From: Desulfobulbus sp.
GTDB taxonomy: Bacteria > Desulfobacterota > Desulfobulbia > Desulfobulbales > Desulfobulbaceae
Direction: 5' to 3'
Assembly (NCBI GenBank): GCA_003978695.1
Contig: QNYF01000056.1
Span: 1 to 34,528 of the forward strand
Length of the DNA stretch: 34,528 bases
Of the stretch, positions 25,298 through 32,356 are shown piece after piece (within the stretch, counting starts at the first letter, position 1; the number at the start of each line of letters is the position of its first letter). A program made the translations under genes and the position numbers. Below the pieces are notes generated by a model. That model was not told where the DNA came from, searched no databases, and saw only the letters and a program-made list of their open reading frames with translations.

Positions 25298-25828
25298 CTA
25301 AAACTCGATCCCTTTTTGTGCCTTTATTCCACTTGCATAAGGATGTTTAATTTCTCTCATTTCAGTAACCAGATCAGCAGCCTCAACAAGTTTACCGTCA
25401 GCATCTCTGCCGGTAATTACAATATGTTGTCTCTTGTCACGGGCAGATAAAACTTCAAGTATTTCCGTCACCTCAATCATCTTATAGGTGACAAGATATG
25501 TCAGCTCATCAAGCACCACCAAGTGATGGCGATTTTCAGCAATTATTTTTTTTGCAAACTCCCACCCATCTCTGGCAACGGCAATATCCTTATCAATATC
25601 ATCAGATTTCCATGTAAAACCACGCCCCATGACATGAAAATCAAGTTGTCCGGAAAACTTCTTTGCGGTTTCTAGTTCGCCATACTTCCAGCTTCCCTTG
25701 ATAAACTGAATAAAACAGACCCGGTGACCATGACCAAGTGCTCTGAATGTGAGCCCCAACGCAGCCGTCGTTTTTCCTTTACCGTTGCCCGTAAAGACCA
25801 TCAGTAAACCTTTTTGTTTATCAGCCAT
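25298..25828 (-). CDS. cobO: Cob(I)yrinic acid a,c-diamide adenosyltransferase (CobO/BtuR family)
   Basis: GLLMVFTGNGKGKTTAALGLTFRALGHGHRVCFIQFIKGSWKYGE...VVLDELTYLVTYKMI...ITGRDADGKLVEAADLVTEMREIKHPYASGIKAQKGIEF. Confidence 0.94.
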   Translation of the reverse strand: MADKQKGLLMVFTGNGKGKTTAALGLTFRALGHGHRVCFIQFIKGSWKYGELETAKKFSGQLDFHVMGRGFTWKSDDIDKDIAVARDGWEFAKKIIAENRHHLVVLDELTYLVTYKMIEVTEILEVLSARDKRQHIVITGRDADGKLVEAADLVTEMREIKHPYASGIKAQKGIEF

Positions 25829-26423
25829 GGGAGCTTTTTCTATATCTTGTAGTTACAGATGACGCCTTCTGAGGTAAACCATGCGAAAGTGGCCTGCCAT
25901 GCTGCCGTACGTACTCATAAACAACAATTGCCCCGGCAATACTCACATTCAGACTCTGTACATGTCCCCACTGGGGAATGGAGAGGCTTGTAATGTCTGG
26001 ATACTGGTGGCGATCAAAGCTTAAGCCAAATTCTTCATGACCGAGAACAAATGCTGTTTTCGGCATAAACTCCACTTTACCCAGGACCTGATCAGAACCA
26101 GGCTCAAGCGTAATAATGGAGTACTCTTTTTCCTTGAGTGCCAGATAACAGGACGCAAAATCATCATGCATCTGGTATTTGACCCAACGAACCGACCCCT
26201 TGGCAGGATCCGGGTCAAAGGCCGGTACTCCGATCACATGAATTTCACGGACACCAAAAGCATCGGCAGAGCGAAAAATTTTACCTATGTTAAAATCCGG
26301 TTTCAGACCGTCAAGCACAAGTATGCACTTATGCAGACCATAAGAGGCACTGGACATGTTTCGTCTTCGTGCCCGCTCATACCTGATCTCCATATCAAAT
26401 CGTTTATGTACTCTCCTGCGCAT
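25821..26423 (-). CDS. TrmH/SpoU family RNA methyltransferase (start could be 26393 or 26357)
   Basis: LDGLKPDFNIGKIFRSADAFGVREIHVIGV...FVLGHEEFGLS...SIPQWGHVQSLNVSIAGAIVVYEYVRQ; SpoU motifs 1-3. Confidence 0.88.
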   Translation of the reverse strand: MRRRVHKRFDMEIRYERARRRNMSSASYGLHKCILVLDGLKPDFNIGKIFRSADAFGVREIHVIGVPAFDPDPAKGSVRWVKYQMHDDFASCYLALKEKEYSIITLEPGSDQVLGKVEFMPKTAFVLGHEEFGLSFDRHQYPDITSLSIPQWGHVQSLNVSIAGAIVVYEYVRQHGRPLSHGLPQKASSVTTRYRKSSHG

Positions 26424-26452
26424 ATTTCTATTTTATCACGGGTTGTTCTTTT

Positions 26453-26622
26453 GTAACTATTCAGGTAGCATCATGACTTTGGCATAACGTATGGTCTGTA
26501 ACTGTTCAGATGTGCTCCATATTGTGGCAAGCAGGCCAACGAACTATAGGCCGCCTATGTGAGGCGGCCTGATTGTCGCAGGTAAGACGCGACTCCGAGA
26601 TGGGGTACAGCTGAACAGTTAC
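26453..26622. mobile_element. 170-bp IS66-type non-autonomous element (MITE-like), copy A
   Basis: Ends GTAACTATTCAG...CTGAACAGTTAC (12-bp TIR, 1 mismatch, starting GTAA). Flanked by the exact 8-bp direct duplication GTTCTTTT at 26445-26452 and 26623-26630. Internal perfect hairpin AGGCCGCC-TATGTGA-GGCGGCCT at 26548-26570. The first 57 bp recur at 27258 and in inverted form at 32300-32356. Confidence 0.8.
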
Positions 26623-26692
26623 GTTCTTTTTTACCCCACGTTGTACTCTGTGGAATAAAAAAAAACAACTCTGATGCCTGAGGAGGCCCATT

Positions 26693-27241
26693 GTGACGAC
26701 ATCCGGGACAACCTGCTGTGAAATATGCGGAGCAGAGAAGAAAATAGCAAAAAGTGGAGGATATAATGCCTGTCCAACCTGCCGCGTTATCATCAGCAAC
26801 ATAAAGAACCATCCACAAACAATAAAAAAGCTTTGGCCGGAACTCCAGGACGAGCCGATTTTGCCCAAGCGTGACCTGAAAAAAATACAGGAGGAACTGG
26901 AATTACCTGAAGTCCTGGACGGCAAACGCTACATGACAGTAGACCGTGAGAACAACAAATGGTACCTCTCGGTAAGTGAAGTCGATGGACAACCGGTAGA
27001 AGTGTTTGCTTCAACCGCCTTTGACCGTGACCATGAACTGCAGTCTCGCATCTCCAACCTGACAACAATTACCCGGCTTATTTCTCTCATGCTGCGTCAT
27101 ATCTTTCTCAACGAACCTCTGACATTGCAAAAATGTCTTAAACAGATAAAACGAAGTTCACGACAAAGAAACGATTTACCAGACATGCTCTACGGCGTTC
27201 TAAACCGCTATACTGACATGCAAGGAAAGACAAAAAAATAA
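26693..27241 (+). CDS. Orphan protein with N-terminal zinc-ribbon-like CxxC pairs and a TSCPD-like domain (as at the C-terminus of B12-dependent ribonucleotide reductase)
   Basis: GTG start behind a strong AGGAGG site. CEICG...CPTC, then RYMTVDRENNKWYLSVSEVDGQPVEVFASTAF...TTITRLISLMLRHIF...LTLQKCLKQIKRSSRQRNDLPDMLYGVLNRY, recalling NrdJ TSCPD domains (LYVTVNE.DG.PFEVF...RLISLALR...PDAIAKAL). Recognised from memory, no search. Confidence 0.6.
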   Translation: MTTSGTTCCEICGAEKKIAKSGGYNACPTCRVIISNIKNHPQTIKKLWPELQDEPILPKRDLKKIQEELELPEVLDGKRYMTVDRENNKWYLSVSEVDGQPVEVFASTAFDRDHELQSRISNLTTITRLISLMLRHIFLNEPLTLQKCLKQIKRSSRQRNDLPDMLYGVLNRYTDMQGKTKK

Positions 27242-27257
27242 GCACATAATGGCAAAG

Positions 27258-27318
27258 GTAACTATTCAGGCAGCACCGCGACTTTGGCATAACGTGTGGT
27301 CTGTAACTGAATAGTTAC
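27258..27318. mobile_element. 61-bp truncated or minimal copy B of the same repeat family
   Basis: GTAACTATTCAG (27258-27269) ... CTGAATAGTTAC (27307-27318) is a perfect 12-bp inverted repeat. The interior GGCAGCACCGCGACTTTGGCATAACGTGTGGTCTGTAACT matches copy A. Flanking octamers TGGCAAAG/GGGTAAAG match 6/8. Confidence 0.7.
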
Positions 27319-31894: not shown

Positions 31895-31960
31895 TGAGGC
31901 GGCTCAAGAAAAATTGTGAATCTTCAGGTGAGTGCGAAAAACGTCCAGAACCACTGTAGT

Positions 31961-31975
31961 GTAACTGTTCAGGAG
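31961..31975. repeat. Isolated terminal motif GTAACTGTTCAGGAG
   Basis: Exact 12-mer GTAACTGTTCAG as in copies A and C. With CTGAACAGTTAC at 32345-32356 it forms an outer perfect 12-bp inverted repeat spanning 396 bp. Confidence 0.5.
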
Positions 31976-32279
31976 TGCCTTAGATTCGTTCATTTAAGGC
32001 TGCTTAAGTAGCATAAGTACGCTTCATTCTCAGCTTTTAATAAACAGGTAAGCATAGACTCCGGACCTGCGGCACTTCTGGACTATAAGTACAGGTCAGT
32101 GGTTTTGCAAGTTTTCAACACCCACCTGAAGAGTGACACTTAACTTAAAGATGGTTTTTCTTTGGGCTTTACCCCGGTTGTTGTTTTACGTTGTCCTGTA
32201 CCCTGTTATCAGGGATGATGATCTCGGGCTTCCGGTATTATTATGAGCTTTAAACTCTGCAAGCTGGTATTTGAGTAAC

Positions 32280-32356
32280 GTAACTCTTCAGGAGCACATC
32301 TGAACAGTTACAGACAACACGACATGCCAAAGTCGTGGTGCTACCTGAACAGTTAC
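32280..32356. mobile_element. 77-bp copy C of the GTAACTRTTCAG repeat family, inverted relative to A and B
   Basis: Reverse complement of 32300-32356 is GTAACTGTTCAGGTAGCACCACGACTTTGGCATGTCGTGTTGTCTGTAACTGTTCAG, 50/57 identical to 26453-26509. Homology continues ATGTGCTCC and ends in CTGAAGAGTTAC. Confidence 0.68.

Follow-up and report, generated by a model that had tools for sequence, protein, structure and literature searches.

In this study we examined a 34,528-nt stretch of a Desulfobulbus sp. genome (contig QNYF01000056.1, hereafter the window), in which a SpoU-family RNA methyltransferase gene on the minus strand (25821-26423; Pfam SpoU_methylase) and a TSCPD-domain gene on the plus strand (26693-27241; Pfam TSCPD) diverge from an intergenic region carrying a MITE. 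The MITE is 170 bp long (26453-26622), is assigned to the plus strand by its tandem left end and its folded strand, and lies between two exact copies of the octamer GTTCTTTT, an 8-bp target duplication to which no strand is assigned (left copy 26445-26452, right copy 26623-26630). Both the outer left terminus GTAACTATTCAG (26453-26464, plus strand) and the right terminus CTGAACAGTTAC (26611-26622) abut the duplication directly; they are inverted repeats starting with GTAA, with one mismatch between their 12-nt arms (92% complementary), and a transposase gene is absent from the element. An earlier note on this sequence had described the duplication, the termini, the nature of both neighbours and the distances of 29 bp to the SpoU start (26423) and 62 bp to the TSCPD start (26693), all of which proved right, but it missed a third copy of the end and the hairpin body.

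The third copy (26498-26509) lies 45 bp inward of the left terminus. The outer left end and the spacer that leads to the inner one (26465-26497, plus strand) together form a 45-bp module, the length of which is near-constant (43-47 bp) in other genera. From the inner left end to the right end extends a structured core (26498-26622, plus strand) that matches our covariance model with E = 3.2e-19. Within it, the inner left end GTAACTGTTCAG with the 5' arm of the outer helix (26498-26520, plus strand) and the right end with the 3' arm (26600-26622, plus strand) make up the longest inverted repeat, 23 nt at 87%. A 17-bp insert, GGTAAGACGCGACTCCG (26581-26597, plus strand), is optional and is missing from cores of about 108 nt. 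The motif GGTAAGC..GACTCCG seen there is mostly 17 bp long and occurs at 52 genomic places, against 1 for the reversed pattern; variably present between otherwise similar copies and once found in tandem (G000 C25:436-469), it resembles a very small insert that has arisen repeatedly.

The family as a whole conserves the divergent SpoU-TSCPD pair, and an empty site with the same divergent genes and a single GTTCTTTT was found in the congeners G001, G003, G004 and G002 as well as in further genera. The insertion is thus younger than the split from these four congeners, and only in this sense does the earlier description of it as fairly recent stand. All four congeners carry a single GTTGTTCTTTT at the equivalent place, and the junction region, less the element and one octamer, measures 182 bp, compared with 181 bp in G001 and 180 bp in G004. 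The landing place of the element is a conserved 50-nt intergenic motif, GTTGTTCTTTTTN8GTTGTACTCTN8AAAAAAAACAAC, which is constant in length and was found as a single copy in each of 13 genomes of the family. In the window this motif occupies 26442-26452 and 26623-26669 between SpoU and TSCPD, the second piece (plus strand) holding 47 of its 50 nt, and the duplication of GTTCTTTT restores it except for the first 3 nt. A terminator-like function of the element was looked for and none was found, and the left junction has a single promoter-like match, GTTACA-16-TAAAAT pointing towards SpoU, which is no more than chance would give (1 vs 0.6). In two relatives (L172 and L177), the SpoU-TSCPD intergenic region carries a different palindromic repeat of about 100-200 bp (CAGGGTGCCTTGAAA..TTTCAAGGT).

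The genome to which the window belongs (1.91 Mb in 236 contigs, 75% complete) contains at least 40 near-full copies, a count reached with 40 out of the 40 best-scored of 187 candidates, and the 12-mer GTAACTRTTCAG occurs 257 times in this sequence, where the reversed pattern never does. The 125 end-pairs whose loci were read split into two groups, most having flanks that match at chance level and 24 having exact 8-bp duplications, with octamers that differ from site to site; about 0.002 exact duplications would be expected at uniform base composition, and somewhat more for AT-rich flanks. It is hardly conceivable that unrelated short inverted repeats merely stand beside a coincidental octamer repeat, since this reading has nothing in its favour beyond the single site as first described and is opposed by the near-full copies, the 257 matches against none in the control, the 24 exact duplications and the existence of empty sites. 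The exactly duplicated elements range in size from 53 to 188 bp, thus internally deleted forms have been inserted too, and in such forms the duplication adjoins the outer, not the inner, left end. Two deletion forms lie in the window itself, one of 61 bp from the same family that consists of the 45-bp left module and an inverted end (27258-27318, plus strand; flanks matching at 6/8) and one of 77 bp with three end copies (32280-32356, minus strand). At 31916-32137 (plus strand) lies a member of a second, related repeat family (B), which shares the tandem 45-bp left end with the family of the MITE (A) and has termini of the GTAAC type; a clear duplication was not found there. Elsewhere in the genome, the element at L222 416-574 is a composite, with a left part from family A and a right part from family B.

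The earlier note had read the element as an IS66-type MITE and had proposed looking for further copies of 150-200 bp flanked by other duplicated octamers, for an empty site with a single GTTCTTTT and for a full IS66 element sharing the ends; all of these were found and the reading holds. The full element (L164, same order) is 2414 bp long, has GTAACTGTTCAG at both ends (12/12) and its own 8-bp duplication ATTTTATT, and encodes a TnpC (PF03050). Beside the TnpC gene, this complete IS66 element holds an ORF with a DruA domain (PF14236; L164 2689-3576), and no description of a DruA-carrying IS66 was found in the literature, mostly freely accessible papers. The only PF03050 match in the genome of the window is a truncated TnpC (L031) with the terminus GTAACCATTCAG (11/12 to the element end), which shares 45% identity over 186 residues with the TnpC of L164; an intact partner transposase was not found in this 75% complete assembly of 236 contigs. 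ISDge4, an actively transposing element of the ISBst12 group, likewise generates an 8-bp direct repeat and has the end GTAACTGCTCAGCA, 11/12 to GTAACTGTTCAG (PMC12898284). The single TnpC-type transposase gene in L031, and the TnpC with one extra ORF in L164, are a further likeness to that group, and the termini of the other complete IS66 elements in the order are GTAAGCG or sequences like it. Taken together, the ends of L164, of the TnpC remnant and of ISDge4, with the 8-bp repeats of L164 and ISDge4, place the element with ISBst12-like IS66, so that the assignment to IS66 stands and is refined to the branch with one transposase, as distinct from the GTAAGCG-ended IS66. On these sequence grounds we infer that a TnpC-type IS66 transposase mobilises the element in trans. 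Unlike the ISBst12 group, the MITE carries no gene, and its tandem left end and conserved hairpin were sought in the complete IS66 elements read and were not found there. An origin by internal deletion of a sampled IS66 element was rejected because no internal sequence is shared.

The same plan, namely outer left end, 43-47 bp, inner left end, core and right end, recurs in other genera, and in most intact cases among relatives and other genera the duplication adjoins the outer end, in a few the inner end. With a covariance model built from 17 cores of 15 genomes, the core was found in 166 of the 243 genomes of the class and in 56 of its 69 genera, within one order only among the matches listed. 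In a sample of the phylum, 9 of 297 genomes had matches, and 2 of these 9 lie outside the order. These two (G311 and G373) have weaker core matches, for which horizontal transfer is possible. The family is thus order-wide and numbers from dozens to well over a hundred copies in a genome, copy number varying widely and many genomes of the family having none. G039, a complete genome of 3.10 Mb, has at least 150 scored matches to the core model; because the core is palindromic, some match counts in other genomes include both strands. Among the copies of G039, the two left ends are spaced by 43 bp in 41 of 48 cases, and 32 of 79 show an outer duplication that matches at 7 or 8 of 8 positions. No Rfam family reached the cut-off against the core at gathering or relaxed thresholds, the weak matches being generic hairpins, and no description of the family, or of MITEs in this group, was found in the literature (mostly freely accessible papers).

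The core folds into a hairpin of about 108 nt that spans the inner left end to the right end, with conserved internal loops and an MFE z of -5.57. In an alignment of 17 cores from 15 genomes (A1), a single hairpin accounts for the sequences with 95% of cells paired, and both sides have changed in 18 of 40 pairs. Compensatory changes exceed the control: 55 double-changed cells were counted vs 16.1 in shuffled alignments, a value reached in 0 of 500 shuffles, and the signal remains when the terminal repeats are left out (34 cells vs 10.3). On the plus strand, G-U pairs outnumber A-C combinations by 93 to 14. Conservation is highest in or next to the internal loops, where CGAA(U)C faces UGAG, and in the apical TATAG/CTATG stem. 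In 25 further genomes outside the training set, 97.3% of cells were paired (26-41% in slid controls), G-U stood at 125 vs A-C at 7, and double changes occurred in 32 of 40 pairs; here the model served both to align the sequences and to pick the best match of each genome, a procedure that favours pairing. The 79 distinct copies of G039, with pair counts subject to the same favouring of pairing, contain 135 double-compensated cells, in which both sides have changed and the pair is kept, and their single-change deviations are G-U in 56 cases vs A-C in 2. The position-5 pair of these copies (UA 29, AU 19, GC 22, CG 9, with zero mispairs) lies in an ungapped stretch and is independent of model fitting. 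Since G-U is tolerated and A-C is not, and on one strand, the selected molecule would be the plus strand, most simply as RNA, and the core has apparently been kept foldable as RNA in dozens of bacterial genera. This one-strand signature is present between genera and within G039 but absent among the copies of the genome of the window, the differences of which are G-U in 21 and A-C in 28 cases, about 14 of the A-C coming from an insert variant. These copies look like ordinary decaying insertions, and without a strand bias among them the copy in the window is best regarded as an ordinary insertion like others of this family; evidence of a function of this copy at the SpoU-TSCPD site was not found.

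We consider it likely that the element belongs to a MITE family of ISBst12-group IS66 with a structured core, probably RNA, and that its insertion duplicated GTTCTTTT after the split from the congeners. Counted against this reading are that an intact partner transposase was not found in the incomplete genome of the window, that no complete IS66 element read has the tandem left end or the hairpin, and that the copies in the genome of the window look like decaying insertions. Cut-and-join insertion would have duplicated the octamer in this lineage after its separation from the sampled congeners, with a TnpC-type IS66 transposase, supplied in trans, working on the outer left end and the right end. 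The conserved passenger would be the body, a long hairpin closed at its base by the inner left end and the right end, the helices being maintained by compensatory changes and the internal loops in sequence, putatively by selection on the plus strand as RNA. As a conjecture, we favour a fold that acts in cis for the propagation of the element itself and might, for instance, present the two ends or bind a transposition protein, with any effects on the host being secondary. More tentatively, this may be a non-autonomous IS66-type family that needs a folded RNA, encoded in the element, in order to transpose or persist, the tandem left end keeping apart an outer copy that serves as DNA terminus and an inner copy at the base of the RNA hairpin; we hold this to be less probable than its opposite.

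Long imperfect palindromes are common in MITEs and template-switching repair can make their arms match, thus the element could be an ordinary IS66 MITE with a palindrome kept at the DNA level, through quasi-palindrome repair or matched terminal repeats, and with no role as RNA, as the lack of strand asymmetry among the copies of the genome of the window would also suggest. However, matching at the DNA level should treat G-U and A-C alike, and the ratios between genera (93:14), in G039 (56:2) and in the 25 further genomes (125:7) are strongly skewed. In addition, in the G039 copies read, position 5 of the outer end, which is the end at the duplication, is often unlike that of the inner and right ends, which pair with each other there without a mispair, and some of the highest conservation is seen in loop columns that have no pairing partner; we therefore regard a purely DNA-level palindrome as unlikely. 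Host selection at each site has reportedly been proposed for some intergenic repeat families, and the core might accordingly be a structured RNA or mRNA-processing element useful to the host, spread by the transposon and kept site by site. In G039, copies without a recognisable outer end or duplication are more divergent and yet keep their pairs equally well (0.22 mispairs of 40, vs 0.47 in copies that have them), and the right neighbour is on the opposite strand for 44 of 61 intergenic copies (p = 0.0007), both of which would fit such a use. A general rule of gene orientation failed, though, as the bias appears in G039 only and is absent in the genome of the window (8 vs 14), a consistent gene association was not found, and copy number is widely variable with many genomes of the family having no copy at all, so that upkeep by the host seems more doubtful still than a palindrome kept in DNA.

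REPINs and ERIC/NEMIS-type palindromes are high-copy intergenic hairpins with coordinated changes between their arms, a REPIN being a REP doublet that is moved by RAYT and lacks a target duplication. The present family is like them in copy number, intergenic hairpin and coordinated arm changes, but its 8-bp duplications and IS66 ends show DDE-type insertion, and identity with REPINs was rejected on account of these target duplications. Bacterial MITEs of the MITEPsy1 type, described in a paper that also names REPINs (PMC3189936), are likewise non-coding elements of 100-200 bp with inverted ends shared with an IS, target duplications and many sizes through internal deletion, while the family described here differs from them in being order-wide with a covarying core and in not being explained as an internal deletion of an IS. 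With Rfam structured RNA families the core shares covarying helices, conserved loops and confinement to one strand, and it differs in that none of them scores at cut-off against it.

Bacterial MITEs are usually treated as passive leftovers of deletion, and here a covarying fold on one strand is preserved by an order-wide MITE family across large numbers of copies. For genome annotation the family represents a gap, with as many as well over a hundred copies in a genome left unannotated, and its tandem ends can break assemblies and promoters. The mechanism of IS66-type transposition is poorly known, and this family lets one ask whether a structured RNA takes part in it.
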